Source: a virus. Taken from it: a stretch of DNA of 33,472 nt. The stretch lies in IMG/VR virus record IMGVR_UViG_3300009163_000106, positions 1-33,472 of that record. The stretch is one strand, 5' to 3'. Both the position numbers and the translations under genes were made by a program. Shown here one piece after another: positions 3,147-30,532 of the stretch (position 1 is the stretch's first letter; the number at the start of each line of letters is the position of its first letter). The notes below the pieces were generated by a model that ran no database searches, was not told the DNA's origin, and worked only from the letters and a program-made list of their open reading frames with translations.

Positions 3147-5422
3147 TGGCAAACGATAAAGCTACAGTTAATCATACCTACGAAGATTGGTATAAAACCA
3201 TTATGGGGTACGAACGCAGCTACAAGCGTTGGGAAGCCAGAGTTGACCGCATAGTTAAAAAGTACAAAGATGATAGCCGCTACGACAGAAACCCTAATGC
3301 ACGATTTAACATCCTTTGGAGCAATGTTCAGACTATTCAGCCAGCTATCTTTGCAAGACTGCCTAGACCTGATGTTAGTCGTAGGTTTAGAGATAATGAC
3401 CCAATAGGTCGTGTAGCCTCAATGATGCTTGAAAGGGCATTAGAGTTTGAGATTGAACACTATGGTGACTACAAGTCAGCCATGAATAACGCAGTCCTAG
3501 ACCGTCTATTAGGTGGTCGAGGCGTTGCTTGGGTGCGTTACGAACCGCATATTGTTGGCGAAGAAGCAGATATGACCGATGGTGCGCCTGATGACGGCTA
3601 TAGCGTTACTGAAGATTCGGACGAAGCTGAAACTCCTGAAGGTATGGAGAATGAATCACAGGAAAGAATTGAATACGAATGCTGCCCAGTTGACTATGTT
3701 CATTGGCGGGATTTCGGACATACTATTGCCCGTACATGGGAAGAAGTAACCGCAGTCTGGCGCAGAGTATATATGTCGCGCCCAGCATTGGTTGAACGAT
3801 TTGGCGAAGAAATGGGCTACAAAATCCCATTGGACACTAAACCTGACGATTTAAAGCAATCCTACAAGTCTGATGATGGCGTATACGAAGCCGTTATCTA
3901 TGAAGTTTGGGACAAAGAAACAGGTAAGGTATTGTGGATTTCTAAGTCACTAGGCAAGATTGTTGACGAAAGAGATGACCCATTACAGTTAGAGAACTTT
4001 TGGCCTTGTCCAAAGCCACTCTATGCAACTTTGACTACAGACTCACTAGAACCAATCCCTGATTTCACTATTTACCAAGACCAAGCCCGTGAATTAGATG
4101 TTCTGTGTGACAGAATTGACGGCTTAATTAACGCCCTTAAAGTGCGCGGTGTATACGATGCCTCGGCTTCTGAGTTGCAGCGCCTATTCTCTGAAGGCGA
4201 AAACAACACTATGATTCCAGTAAGCAACTGGATGGCGTTTGCTGAGAAACAAGGCATGAAAGGTGCTATTGACCTTGTAGACTTAACCCCATTTGCAAGT
4301 GCATTGATGTCTTGCTATCAAGCAATGGAACAAGTCAAGGGTCAAATCTATGAATTAATGGGTATTGCTGACATTCAGCGTGGTCAAACTGACCCAAGCG
4401 AAACCCTTGGCGCACAGATTATCAAGTCAAACAACGCTGCCGGACGCCTAAAGACTCAACAACACGCAGTAGTAGACTTTGCTACAAGCCTTTTGTGCAT
4501 TAAAGCGCAGATTATTTGCAATCATTTTACCGATGACACGCTTGTTAAGATTTCTGGTGCAATGCAATTATCGCCACAAGACCAACAATTGATTCCGCAA
4601 GCTATTGCACTCCTAAGAGATGAAGCAAGTAAGAATTTCCGCATTGAAGTCACTTCTGACTCAATGATTTACCAAGATGAACAGCAAGAAAAGCAAGACA
4701 GAATGCAATTTTTGGCTGCCGTTGGTGGGTTCTTTCAATCAGCAGTACCTTTGGTGCAATCTCAGCCTGAATTAGCCCCTATGGCTATTGAAATGCTGAA
4801 ATTTGGTGTAACTGCTTTTAAAGCCGGTAAGCAATTAGAGGGAATTATTGACGAAACTGCTGATAAATTGCGCCAACAAGCAAAACAAGCAGAAGGTCAA
4901 CCTAAACCACCTAGCCCAGAGATGCAAAAAGCACAAATGGACAATCAATCTAAAATGCAACAAATTCAAATGCAGGCACAGATTGAACAAGCTAAGTTAC
5001 AAGGCCAAATGCAGCTTGAAAAAGCTAAACAAGAGTACCAGGCTCAAGAAAACCAACTTAAATTCCAACTTGAAGAACAACGCAATATGATGGACAGAGA
5101 AATGGAAATGAAAGTTGCCCAAATGAAGATGATGACTGAGAGAAATACTCAAGTTCTGTTAGCCCACATAAACAATGGTGCAAAGATTGAAGTAGCCCGT
5201 ATTGGTTCAGATGATTCAGATGGCACACAAGCCTATATGACTGAACAAGACATGGCTAAGTCAATGGAATCGCCAATGCAACCTATTGCAGATGCTATTG
5301 GTAGCGGAAATATGCAAATGGCACAAGCTATTAGCGCTTTGGTAGATACCATTAACGCACAGCACAATCGCCCTAAAACGGTGGTTAGAGGTCAAGACGG
5401 CAAAATCATTGGAGTTCAATAA
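3146..5422 (+). CDS. Portal protein (podovirus-type, long)
   Basis: A 758-residue portal protein that would form the dodecameric DNA channel at the capsid vertex. The N-terminal part (DWYKTIMGYERSYKRWEAR, then NARFNILWSNVQTIQPAIF) is the opening seen in large podoviral portals. Acidic loops sit around residues 145-175. From about residue 586 to 662 lies a Gln/Met/Lys-rich coiled coil (repeats of QMQAQIEQAKLQ type), fitting the barrel extension of long portals. An in-frame TTG exists 39 nt upstream, but the ATG at 3146 has AGAGGAAGA just before it and overlaps the terminase stop, so it is preferred. It is followed directly by the tail fibre gene, which is not the usual portal-scaffold-capsid order. 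Confidence 0.92.
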   Translation: MANDKATVNHTYEDWYKTIMGYERSYKRWEARVDRIVKKYKDDSRYDRNPNARFNILWSNVQTIQPAIFARLPRPDVSRRFRDNDPIGRVASMMLERALEFEIEHYGDYKSAMNNAVLDRLLGGRGVAWVRYEPHIVGEEADMTDGAPDDGYSVTEDSDEAETPEGMENESQERIEYECCPVDYVHWRDFGHTIARTWEEVTAVWRRVYMSRPALVERFGEEMGYKIPLDTKPDDLKQSYKSDDGVYEAVIYEVWDKETGKVLWISKSLGKIVDERDDPLQLENFWPCPKPLYATLTTDSLEPIPDFTIYQDQARELDVLCDRIDGLINALKVRGVYDASASELQRLFSEGENNTMIPVSNWMAFAEKQGMKGAIDLVDLTPFASALMSCYQAMEQVKGQIYELMGIADIQRGQTDPSETLGAQIIKSNNAAGRLKTQQHAVVDFATSLLCIKAQIICNHFTDDTLVKISGAMQLSPQDQQLIPQAIALLRDEASKNFRIEVTSDSMIYQDEQQEKQDRMQFLAAVGGFFQSAVPLVQSQPELAPMAIEMLKFGVTAFKAGKQLEGIIDETADKLRQQAKQAEGQPKPPSPEMQKAQMDNQSKMQQIQMQAQIEQAKLQGQMQLEKAKQEYQAQENQLKFQLEEQRNMMDREMEMKVAQMKMMTERNTQVLLAHINNGAKIEVARIGSDDSDGTQAYMTEQDMAKSMESPMQPIADAIGSGNMQMAQAISALVDTINAQHNRPKTVVRGQDGKIIGVQ

Positions 5423-28123: not shown

Positions 28124-28393
28124 ATGGACAAACATTTAAAACTTTCAGACACAGCAATTATTGACCTGTTAGGTGGTACGGCAAAAGTAGCTAAAATGTG
28201 CAAAGTAGACCCAGCAGCCGTTTCCAACTGGCGTATTAGAGGTATACCTGGCGACAAATTTATGCTTTTAGGCGCAAGAATAGAAGAAGCTAGTCATGGG
28301 TTAGTTACCAGACAAGACATCTTTCCTACTAATTTTTGGCTAATATGGCCTGAGTTGCTTAAAAACAACGCCTTTGGAAAACAAGATGAATAG
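28124..28393 (+). CDS. YdaS/Cro-like HTH regulator
   Basis: An 89-residue protein. IIDLLGGTAKVAKMCKVDPA then AVSNWRIRGIPGDKFMLL is a helix-turn-helix of the YdaS/Cro-like type: 'LGG..KVA....V...AVSNWR.RGIP'. Its C-terminus (PTNFWLIWPELLK) is typical of the same family. It is transcribed away from the leftward recombination operon, and a palindromic operator lies in the shared 110-nt intergenic region, so it probably sets the early transcription balance. Only a weak GTGA lies before the ATG, so translation may be inefficient or leaderless. Confidence 0.78.
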   Translation: MDKHLKLSDTAIIDLLGGTAKVAKMCKVDPAAVSNWRIRGIPGDKFMLLGARIEEASHGLVTRQDIFPTNFWLIWPELLKNNAFGKQDE

Positions 28394-29114
28394 AGTTGTT
28401 TGTTGGTTTAGTTGCGGTGCTGCTAGTGCCGTAGCTACAAAATTAGCTATAAGTCAATTTGGGGGGGGGAATTACGAAATTGTAATTGCCTATACAGAGG
28501 TAATTGAAGAACACCAAGACAACAAGCGTTTTCTTGCCGATTGCGAAAAATGGTTTGGTCAAAAGATATTAATTTTAGGTAATGACCGCTATGAAAGGTC
28601 TATTTATAAGACTTTTGAAAAGTCAGCTATGAATATTAAAGGTGCAAGCCCATGCACCCGCAAGCTAAAAAAGGATGTTAGGTTAAAGTTTGAAAAGCCT
28701 ACAGATATACAAGTATTTGGATATACGATGGAAGAACAAGACCGCTATGACCGCTTTCTTGACGCTAACAATATTGACGCTATAGCCCCGTTGATTGATA
28801 AAGGCCTTGGTAAGGTAGACTGCTTGGCAATGCTTCAAAACGCTGGCATAGAACTGCCTACAATGTATAAGTTGGGTTATCACAACAATAACTGTATTGG
28901 CTGCGTAAAAGGCGGTAAAGGCTATTGGAATAAGATTAAAGTAGACTTTCCAGTACAGTTTGACCGAATGGCTAAATTAGAACGGTTTAAAAAGCAAACA
29001 GTCTTAAAAGATGTGTATTTGGATGAATTACCGCCGGAAGCTGGTAATTACCCCCAAGAACAAGACATCCAATGCGGTATTTTCTGTCATTTGGCAGAAG
29101 AAGATATAAAGTAG
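28386..29114 (+). CDS. PAPS-reductase / PP-loop family enzyme
   Basis: A 242-residue protein of the adenine-nucleotide alpha-hydrolase (PP-loop) superfamily. VVCWFSCGAASAVATKLA is the phage form of the ATP-pyrophosphatase loop (SGGxDS degenerated to SCGAAS). KGASPCTRKLKKDV, FGYTMEEQDRYDRF and NNNCIGCVKGGKGYWNKI follow, giving Cys residues that could hold an Fe-S cluster or thiol chemistry. Related proteins include PAPS reductase and DndC. A role in nucleic-acid modification is possible but unproven. The ATG overlaps the regulator by 8 nt; a TTG at 28374 is less likely. Nine consecutive G (28461-28469) encode three Gly near residue 27. Confidence 0.8.
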   Translation: MNRVVCWFSCGAASAVATKLAISQFGGGNYEIVIAYTEVIEEHQDNKRFLADCEKWFGQKILILGNDRYERSIYKTFEKSAMNIKGASPCTRKLKKDVRLKFEKPTDIQVFGYTMEEQDRYDRFLDANNIDAIAPLIDKGLGKVDCLAMLQNAGIELPTMYKLGYHNNNCIGCVKGGKGYWNKIKVDFPVQFDRMAKLERFKKQTVLKDVYLDELPPEAGNYPQEQDIQCGIFCHLAEEDIK

Positions 29115-29120
29115 TACAAT
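29091..29120 (+). promoter_or_regulatory. Sigma70-like promoter for the structured RNA
   Basis: TTGGCA (29091-29096) and TACAAT (29115-29120) each match the consensus at five of six positions and are 18 nt apart. The -35 lies in the last codons of the PP-loop gene. The predicted start is near G29127, at the 5' edge of the structured region. Confidence 0.72.
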
Positions 29121-29126
29121 TTAATT

Positions 29127-29590
29127 GCAGAGTGACTTCTGTAGTAAAAAAATCGGCTAAACCCTTTAGGGTTGTTCTGAGCATTTAGTAAAAGCTACCG
29201 ATTCTTTTATTAAGTGAGTCACCTTAGAACAACCTTAAGGGGTTTTGCTATTTCTGCCGCACTCCAGGCGTACTAAGCACCTAAATCGGTGGCGTGGAAG
29301 AAAAGATAGGCTGGTGATAACCCCATTGCAAGCCTCGTAGCGTTAAATGGCGACTACACAAGACGGAGAGGTCATGGGTGATACAAACTCTCCATCGAAT
29401 GAACATTAACCTCGGTAGGACTAGGTGTTGGTATTTCTAAGACATTGGGTCAGTTGATAGTTGCCTATCACCCTTGGTCAAGCTATGCCTAAATGTCTCA
29501 TATTTGCAACTAAGGGTTTGTCATAGGTGACTTTTGTTGAAAATCCTAAGAAACTGTAATCACTCAATAACGAGTAGACATTTAAGGGGA
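29127..29590 (+). ncRNA. Large, highly structured non-coding RNA or giant leader
   Basis: About 464 gene-free nucleotides with dense base pairing. A 23-bp arm joins 29159-29181 to 29223-29245, with three G-U pairs and no mismatch. It carries an inner 9-bp hairpin (29186-29194 with 29204-29212). Other helices: 29128-29131/29138-29141; AGGCT/AGCCT 29308-29312/29331-29335; 29337-29342 with 29351-29357; GGAGAG/CTCTCC 29365-29370/29388-29393; 29440-29446/29492-29498; and 29455-29460/29465-29470. Loop-mediated pairings include GGGTGATA (29376-29383) with TATCACCC (29466-29473). All wobbles in these helices are G-U on the + strand. Size, complexity and phage context recall GOLLD, ROOL and HEARO RNAs, but I cannot identify it as any of them. 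No terminator is seen before 29596. Confidence 0.75.
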
Positions 29591-29595
29591 ATTAA

Positions 29596-29823
29596 ATGAG
29601 AACAATAAAAAAAGCAGTTTTAACTAAAGCATACGCAATTGGCAGCACAACAAACAATGATGTTTGCTATCGCACATCAGCTTACTGGCCCATTGGCACA
29701 GTTGTAGAAGTTGTGTCAAGCGGTAGAGGCAAGGGCAGTATTGTTAAATTGCCAACAAATGAATATGACCCATTTTTTTCTACAACAGCTAGAAAAAATC
29801 AAATTTCAATCAAATTAATTTAA
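29596..29823 (+). CDS. Small basic hypothetical protein
   Basis: A 75-residue basic protein: MRTIKKAVLTKAYAIGSTTN then VCYRTSAYWPIGTVVEVVSS and a C-terminal SIKLI. A beta-rich, SH3-like fold is possible from the pattern. No family is recognised. It is the first frame behind the large structured RNA, with SD AAGGGGA (29584-29590) 5 nt from the ATG. A helix that could sequester this SD is described in the findings. Confidence 0.6.
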   Translation: MRTIKKAVLTKAYAIGSTTNNDVCYRTSAYWPIGTVVEVVSSGRGKGSIVKLPTNEYDPFFSTTARKNQISIKLI

Positions 29824-30160: not shown

Positions 30161-30532
30161 ATGTTTGATGAATTCTGGTCTTTATATCCACGAAAAATTG
30201 CTAAAGCAACTGCAAGAAAAGCCTGGGCAAAACTTTCCGCAGAACAACAACTTATGGCTGCAAAAGCTATTGACACACATTGCCAATACTGGCGAACAAA
30301 AGAAACTGAGTTAGAATTTATTCCCCATCCTTCTACATGGTTAAATGCGGAAAGATGGGAAGATGAATTGGTAATAGAACCTAAGAAAGAAAAGATTGAC
30401 AAAAAGTGGATGTTTTCTAACGAAGGTATTGAAGCTAAAGCAAGGGAGTTGGGTGTCTTGGGTACTGGTTACGACTCTTATGACAGCTTAAAACAAAAAT
30501 GTATGAGGAAGCTAAACATCGCTGCGCTGTAA
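30161..30532 (+). CDS. DnaT-like / phage replication protein C-terminal domain
   Basis: A 123-residue protein. FDEFWSLYPRKIAKATARKA then WAKLSAEQQ, and later EFIPHPSTWLNAERWEDEL, are the signature of the C-terminal domain of phage replication proteins of the lambda O/DnaT-related group. This domain helps load host replicative helicase. Here it stands alone, without an N-terminal origin-binding HTH. It would link the phage to host DNA replication, consistent with the absence of a phage polymerase. SD GGAGAGGAG lies directly before the ATG; its end overlaps the next gene by 34 nt. Confidence 0.78.
   Translation: MFDEFWSLYPRKIAKATARKAWAKLSAEQQLMAAKAIDTHCQYWRTKETELEFIPHPSTWLNAERWEDELVIEPKKEKIDKKWMFSNEGIEAKARELGVLGTGYDSYDSLKQKCMRKLNIAAL

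Follow-up and report, generated by a model that had tools for sequence, protein, structure and literature searches.

The interval at positions 29115-29595 of this phage DNA raises a simple question: what does it encode, if not a protein? The window (the whole stretch of DNA that was analyzed, 33,472 bases) is a virus record whose genes include a terminase, a major head protein, and an Erf-like annealing protein; the capsids closest to its own share ~50% identity with it and belong to phages whose hosts are unrelated. A reading of the sequence alone had proposed that the interval is free of genes and holds a large, ornate structured RNA with its own promoter. The absence of a gene is borne out: no ORF fills the interval, the sole ORF of at least 60 amino acids reaching into it is antisense (28987-29184), and only 3 of the 306 frames of 51 homologues are open across the core of the RNA. 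The structured RNA stands as well, on the + strand, but its limits do not: the RNA proper spans about 29127-29493, ~370 nt, and has two parts, a 5' arm and a core. It is placed between a PAPS-reductase-like gene and two small ORFs of no known function, neither of which has a match in PHROG or Pfam.

28124-28393: Cro/YdaS-like regulator
28374-29114: PAPS-reductase-like gene, upstream neighbor of the RNA
29115-29120 (+): -10 element TACAAT, without a clear -35 element
29127-29257 (+): 5' arm, with a 23-bp perfect stem and two long-range pairings
29258-29493 (+): conserved class A core of the RNA; hit of covariance model R1 at 29255-29492, 250.4 bits in the window
30161-30532: replication initiation protein, rightwards of the RNA

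To call this RNA ornate was correct but understated it, since it is built of two modules, and in related phages unrelated RNAs take the place of the second. The RNA is under selection as such, it starts at its own -10 element, and its 5' arm is a common module that precedes unrelated 3' domains at the same locus.

Distribution of the RNA

The structured RNA is conserved in more than 140 IMG/VR contigs of freshwater phages. An exact 25-mer search of IMG/VR returned 4 contigs, two short patterns returned 68 and 118, and an iterated nhmmer profile gave 144 matching loci, two of them copies of the window; most matches run the full length. A 17-mer match in L007 (loci are designated L and a number) was discarded as due to chance, being absent among the profile matches. 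In L003 and L004 the core is 97-98% identical to that of the window and long stretches of the flanking genes are 80-87% identical; in 1,334 of 1,500 random pairs the core is better conserved than the neighboring replication gene. Among GenBank phages there is one core relative only, MW202674.1, an uncultured podovirus from Manatee Spring (L154), and a search for the arm alone found none. Two antisense CDSs for hypothetical proteins are drawn over the RNA in this record (5130-5377) and are probably spurious gene calls. Two exact-pattern scans of ~85,000 GTDB bacterial and archaeal species genomes, which diverged copies could escape, gave no core, and the plasmid search gave no match.

The RNA is present in a single copy per genome, apart from variants at contig ends. 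Apparent second copies were seen in two genomes, at or near the ends of the contigs. Two copies of arm plus core per contig are found as L243/L244, on the contig of L102, and as L165/L170, on one 44-kb contig. The L243/L244 copies lie at contig ends and differ like strain variants, with diverged arms and similar cores. Doubled copies could come from true duplication or from mixed strains whose circular genomes were assembled together; we treated them as assembly effects, because of their position at or near contig ends and because in genome G017 the two copies represent a single region in divergent strain versions.

Covariation supports the core fold

We aligned 51 representatives sharing less than 95% identity, built a covariance model (R1), and used it for realignment; all 51 sequences are matched by it. 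Over 46 pairs in 10 helices, 95.8% of the cells are paired, 38 pairs change on both sides, and the covariation score is 0.586; shuffles give 0.186, with 0 of 500 reaching 0.586, and sliding the partners gives no more than 0.075. Fitting the alignment to the nested pairs favors those pairs, but PK1 lay outside the model and is still paired in 99.5% of its cells. Selection as an RNA, which had been argued from the single sequence, is thus supported by strong covariation. We examined two ways in which that reading could fail, and found that the homologues covary and that no reading frame is kept among them. The elements of the core are as follows.

29258-60/29268-70 (+): P1, 100% paired
29278-81/29288-91 (+): P2, 100% paired
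29263-66/29295-98 (+): pseudoknot PK1, from the P1 loop, 99.5% paired, changes on both sides in 4 of 4 pairs
29308-11/29332-35 (+): P3, 100% paired, compensatory changes
29313-16/29324-27 (+): P3a, 95% paired, compensatory changes
29337-42/29351-57 (+): P4, 100% paired, compensatory changes
29362-29396 (+): P5 hairpin, 93% paired, all 8 pairs changed on both sides
29376-29383 (+): P5 loop GGGUGAUA, the 5' strand of pseudoknot PK2
29419-21/29449-51 (+): P6, 100% paired, changes on both sides in every pair
29425-29/29441-45 (+): P6a, variable, 93% paired, changes on both sides in every pair
29456-60/29465-69 (+): P7 hairpin (region 29456-29473)
29466-29473 (+): P7 3' strand UAUCACCC, also the PK2 partner of the P5 loop

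When read in register, PK2 (GGUGN/N'CACC) is paired in 51 of 51 sequences, with A-U replaced by G-C in five of them and by C-G in one. The local hairpin P7 can form on the same strand in nearly all sequences; of all the helices it has the weakest support (83% of cells). P7 and PK2 compete for this strand, which suggests a conformational switch, or else each of them uses part of the strand. GGGUGAU (29376-29383) and AUCACC (29466-29473) resemble an extended Shine-Dalgarno sequence and the 3' end of 16S rRNA; the variants GGUGG and GGUGC disfavor a ribosome-related role for the PK2 strands. The crossing pairings read from the single sequence do exist, as PK1 and PK2 in the core and as PK3 and PK4 in the arm (see below).

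Folding energy tells the two modules apart. Judged against 100 dinucleotide shuffles, the whole interval has a z score of -4.52 and the arm (29125-29254) one of -8.85, whereas the core alone is no stabler than chance (-0.38). Thermodynamic stability was for this reason dropped as evidence for the core; the claim that it is structured comes from comparison, and energy alone would not justify such a claim. RNAalifold used alone missed P5 and both pseudoknots.

The 5' arm and its variable contacts

The mismatch-free 23-bp stem proposed from the sequence is exact, and it is the outer part of a long hairpin whose bulge and apical loop each hold one strand of a long-range pairing.

29127-29142 (+): 5'-terminal hairpin GCAG-AGUGACUU-CUGU with strand a in its loop, the predicted 5' end of the RNA
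29132-29137 (+): PK3 strand a, GUGACU, complement of a' (AGUCAC, 29217-29222)
29151-29156 (+): PK4 strand b, AAUCGG, complement of b' (CCGAUU, 29198-29203) at the arm apex
29159-29245 (+): arm hairpin in the minimum free energy (MFE) fold, with a' (29217-29222) as a bulge and a 9-nt apical loop containing b'
29159-29181/29223-29245 (+): outer stem, 23 bp, in the MFE fold
29182-29194/29204-29216 (+): inner stem, 13 bp, in the MFE fold
29253-29257 (+): UCUGC, which can pair with GCAGA (29127-29131) and close the arm domain beside P1

The same 5'-terminal hairpin, with a variable loop, occurs in other loci, and arms of the same design are found in L002, L108, L154, and others. Strands a and a' (PK3) match without a flaw for 6 nt or more in 110 of 111 loci, where 16 loci are expected with partners shuffled, and the pairing takes 21 distinct sequences. 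Arms of unrelated sequence (L108, L105, L153, L077, L076, and L154) also have a complementary a/a' pair when inspected by eye. The evidence for PK4 is weaker: at least 5 Watson-Crick pairs are possible in 35 of 62 distinct pairs, against a mean of 11.6 and a maximum of 19 after shuffling. The outer stem of ~23 bp matches in length the inner stem of 13 bp plus an apex contact of 6-8 bp, so that a single molecule could make both contacts if its arm folds back at the bulge. Variable matching loop pairs such as PK3 and PK4 would also fit contacts between molecules. The UCUGC/GCAGA pairing, a rival of the local hairpin, shows compensating variants in L136 (AUCGCAGA/UCUGUGAU) and in L244, which were not formally counted.

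The arm's 3' strand enters a U-tract (GGGG-UUUUU), and in many clades the arm resembles an intrinsic terminator; the U-tract is missing from the L086/L106 type of arm. The arm is not universal. In about 40 of the 143 core-bearing contigs (e.g., L003 and L004), an upstream ORF, usually cro-like, stops at most 45 nt from the core, so there is no room for an arm.

The core is an exchangeable cassette

Does the arm always precede this core? A pattern from the 3' strand of the arm retrieved at least 120 contigs from IMG/VR. Among the matches listed, 88 are new places, of which 23 have the window's core and 65 have other domains. Directly after the arm these places have at least four further kinds of domain, classes B, C, D, and E. 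Whatever the class, a gene of the same cro-like families precedes the RNA, and a gene of one and the same replication family follows it.

Class B: L158 1917-2230 and about 20 other loci; CUAGCCCGUACUCAUUGGUGUUGCUACGGUAAAGGCUGUAAAUACCCCUAGAAACUACUAG; no Rfam match
Class C: L157 2913-3130, L160 6698-6900, and about 10 loci; GAUGGGCUAGAGGCC...GGAGCGAGGGUCGACACCUG; no Rfam match
Class D: RF02932 (Betaproteobacteria-1) in L165, L166, L163, L199, L240, and L241; 88-104 bits, cut-off 49.4
Class E: L168, L171, L188, and L200; long pyrimidine-rich hairpin GAGAAAACACCAGUUUUCUU...UUUUCUUUUUCUUCUUUG after the arm; no Rfam match at the arm
Chimera: L181 (reverse strand) and L198 1124-1500; arm plus P1-P2-PK1 of class A, then unrelated sequence from AAAAGAUAAAGGCAAAGACGG

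Class B is a candidate for a separate RNA class. Class C stops, in L160, just before the replication gene, and L202 has yet another domain. Since the same arm precedes unrelated domains at the same place, the core behaves as an exchangeable cassette. One contig has divergent copies of the same region at its two ends, in which the cores agree and the arms differ. Together with the chimeras L181 and L198, this indicates that arms and cores recombine independently.

The common sequence is not confined to the 5' side. Near-identical 3' flanks (AACAACACTWAGGGTAWATCCCTA) follow the unrelated cores of L155 (class A) and L158 (class B). Both loci have the palindrome AAACAACACTWAGGGTAWATCCCTATAAAATAACT, and such a palindrome is present in 21 of 90 places, against 1 expected. 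An operator-like palindrome after the cassette, TTAGGGTAAATCCCTA, overlaps a TATAAAAT-like site and is common to several classes (for example in L158, L155, and L163); in the window it is degenerate, at about 29503-29520. Between this palindrome and the next gene there is often ACTCAATAACGAGT.

Is the RNA a gene of its own?

The promoter announced at the 5' edge is confirmed. In 81 of 86 distinct homologous loci, the arm hairpin is preceded at 12-13 nt by TATACT, TATAAT, or TACAAT, while shuffles give a mean of 7.3 and a maximum of 14. The position of the -10 element places the transcription start at 29127, which is the first base of the structure. An own -10 element with a start at the first structured base would be, as far as sequence can tell, the anatomy of an autonomous RNA gene. 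Counted against a stand-alone RNA, a downstream promoter-like site is present in 12 of 81 loci only.

The 3' end is less uniform. In most clades no consistent terminator was found within 700 nt downstream, and the RNA, which mostly lacks a terminator of its own, is nearly always on the same strand as the genes that follow. Terminators both before the RNA and after the core plus a small ORF occur in the L135/L112 clade only, where they suggest that the RNA heads its own unit. In L135, L112, L089, L140, and L146, a 45-codon ORF (MFDFEKQYKDALEKFE...) directly follows the core and is itself followed by a perfect terminator hairpin (AAGGGGCGAAAGCCCCTTTTTT in L112), making one unit of RNA, small protein, and terminator.

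What could the RNA do?

Our best explanation, to which we would give about half of our confidence, is that this is a phage noncoding RNA of ~370 nt that would be expressed early in infection and most likely act in trans, its 5' scaffold being constant and its effector exchangeable. Transcription would start from 29127 and the loop of the 5' hairpin would dock on the bulge of the arm; in many members the linker would dock on the arm apex, the arm folding back into a compact scaffold that could protect the 5' end. The pseudoknotted core would show its invariant loops (UUAAAUGG, CACAAG, GAACAUUA, and CACCCUUGG) to a conserved partner and may switch state between P7 and PK2. The least certain step is the last one: the effector may be under diversifying selection, for host takeover, counter-defense, or phage exclusion. 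Diversifying selection is suggested by the way entire cores are swapped while the 5' arm stays constant and the 3' flank is shared, and the exchange of unrelated effectors would, by analogy, be typical of conflict functions such as counter-defense and exclusion.

Several observations point to action in trans: the RNA has its own promoter, its loops are invariant beyond the needs of pairing, the genes downstream vary, a class of the small RNA (sRNA) type is one of the alternative 3' domains, and terminators flank the L135/L112 unit. The differences in downstream genes between clades also disfavor the control of one particular gene. However, some of the data do not fit easily. In about 40 contigs the core would be the tail of an upstream, usually cro-like, mRNA, as it begins at most 45 nt from the stop codon. 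In many clades the terminator-like arm would stop most transcripts before the core. Moreover, an RNA in the same direction as the next genes and mostly without its own terminator could be a leader.

This last point leads to the main rival, which we judge rather unlikely: a cis-acting leader, or an antitermination or attenuation element, of the early rightward operon. The arm would then be a regulated terminator and the core would target RNA polymerase or the genes that follow, at the site where lambda has nutR. The locus fits, as in most clades the RNA comes just after a cro-like gene and before replication genes on the same strand. In most clades, too, no terminator was found between the core and the next gene. 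The GGGG-UUUUU end of the arm also has the look of an intrinsic terminator, which the long-range a/a' and b/b' pairings, crossing the arm stem, could oppose. Yet a cis antiterminator belongs ahead of the terminator that it overrides, and here the core comes after the terminator-like arm, on which it cannot act in this way; in most clades no consistent terminator of the sort required was found just downstream. The L086/L106-type arms lack a U-tract, the downstream genes vary, and the next large gene converges on the RNA in the L135 clade.

The proximity to replication genes could also indicate a replication RNA, either primer- or origin-linked like ColE1 RNA II or a copy-control RNA. In most clades the RNA adjoins a replication gene (family 0), and it is present in a single copy per genome except for the contig-end variants. 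We find this improbable, as in other clades the RNA lies beside an HNH gene, away from family 0, and the mutual replacement of unrelated cores is hard to square with a primer. Least probable of all is a mobile or selfish RNA element, intron-like or containing a ribozyme, inserted between genes: it would explain the sharp module borders, the core exchange, the elaborate pseudoknotted fold, and the chimeras that keep P1-P2-PK1 only (L181, L198), but no intron model (group I or II) and no ribozyme family matches, there is no split gene at the borders and no associated endonuclease or transposase, and the genomic locus is constant.

Returning to the trans-acting RNA, a more general and more tentative proposal is that the locus might combine a constant, promoter-driven 5' scaffold, carrying hypervariable self-matching contacts, with interchangeable unrelated effectors (at least classes A to E and the chimera). 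It would thus be an RNA counterpart of anti-defense or immunity cassettes, of which Betaproteobacteria-1 would be one piece. To our knowledge, an organization with a constant arm and exchangeable cores has not been described, as far as our tools go. If true, phages would have a new route of evolution, in which RNA effector domains are swapped as modules while the early locus stays fixed. Betaproteobacteria-1, an orphan Rfam class, is recast as one among several 3' domains that are exchanged behind a common 5' module. The modularity also makes function testable, by keeping the arm and swapping the core. A single loop-loop pairing, solved in more than 20 ways on a near-constant frame, provides a data set for the study of RNA tertiary structure and possibly of self-assembly.

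Comparison with known RNAs

The sequence-only reading had offered two identities, a divergent member of the GOLLD, ROOL, HEARO, or group I intron classes or a new class. We scanned 28900-29800 with cmscan under permissive filters, and the first suggestion did not hold, with no model of these classes matching at E values up to 10. Rfam 15 gave no known family for the window or for 15 divergent relatives of the core (the latter at the gathering score), which favors the second; the scan of class B, C, and E loci gave no known family either.

Like GOLLD and ROOL, the RNA is phage-encoded, elaborate, and pseudoknotted, and its function is not known. Contacts between molecules occur in both of these classes, of which one ROOL example has 659 nt and GOLLD often exceeds 800 nt (PMC12286853). 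Self-assembly into homo-oligomeric cages characterizes GOLLD. The RNA described here differs in its ~370 nt, in having no covariance-model match to them and no tRNA in the window, and in that its 5' part is common and its 3' part is exchanged between classes. HEARO and group I introns are also large folded RNAs of phages and bacteria. Unlike HEARO, which again gave no model match, our RNA has no adjacent nuclease gene, its upstream neighbor being PAPS-reductase-like. Unlike group I introns, equally without a model match, it lies between complete ORFs and interrupts no gene. The motif GGACUAGG...UUGGGUC resembles the P7 region of group I introns; it was rejected as such, given the wrong spacing and the lack of a model match.

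The put elements of phage HK022 and the nut elements of lambda are well under 100 nt and lie after cro in the early rightward operon. Our RNA shares with them the position after cro-like genes, but no downstream terminator target was found for it, and it has ~370 nt and its own promoter.

The closest link is with RF02932, typed by Rfam as an sRNA gene; Betaproteobacteria-1 was reportedly defined in a 2017 paper by Weinberg. In sister loci it shares with the window RNA the 5' arm, the promoter element, and the cro/replication locus. Its sequence and fold are nevertheless different, the window core giving no match to it at E values up to 10. RF02932 matches begin after the arm, which is outside its 120-position model. 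The literature search, which did not cover the original Betaproteobacteria-1 paper, where the arm may be mentioned, found the RNA undescribed. By Rfam 15 and the literature searched, the core is a new structured RNA class, belonging to a known kind, the phage structured RNAs of unknown function, and it adds to them a large and strongly supported class that was missing from Rfam 15.
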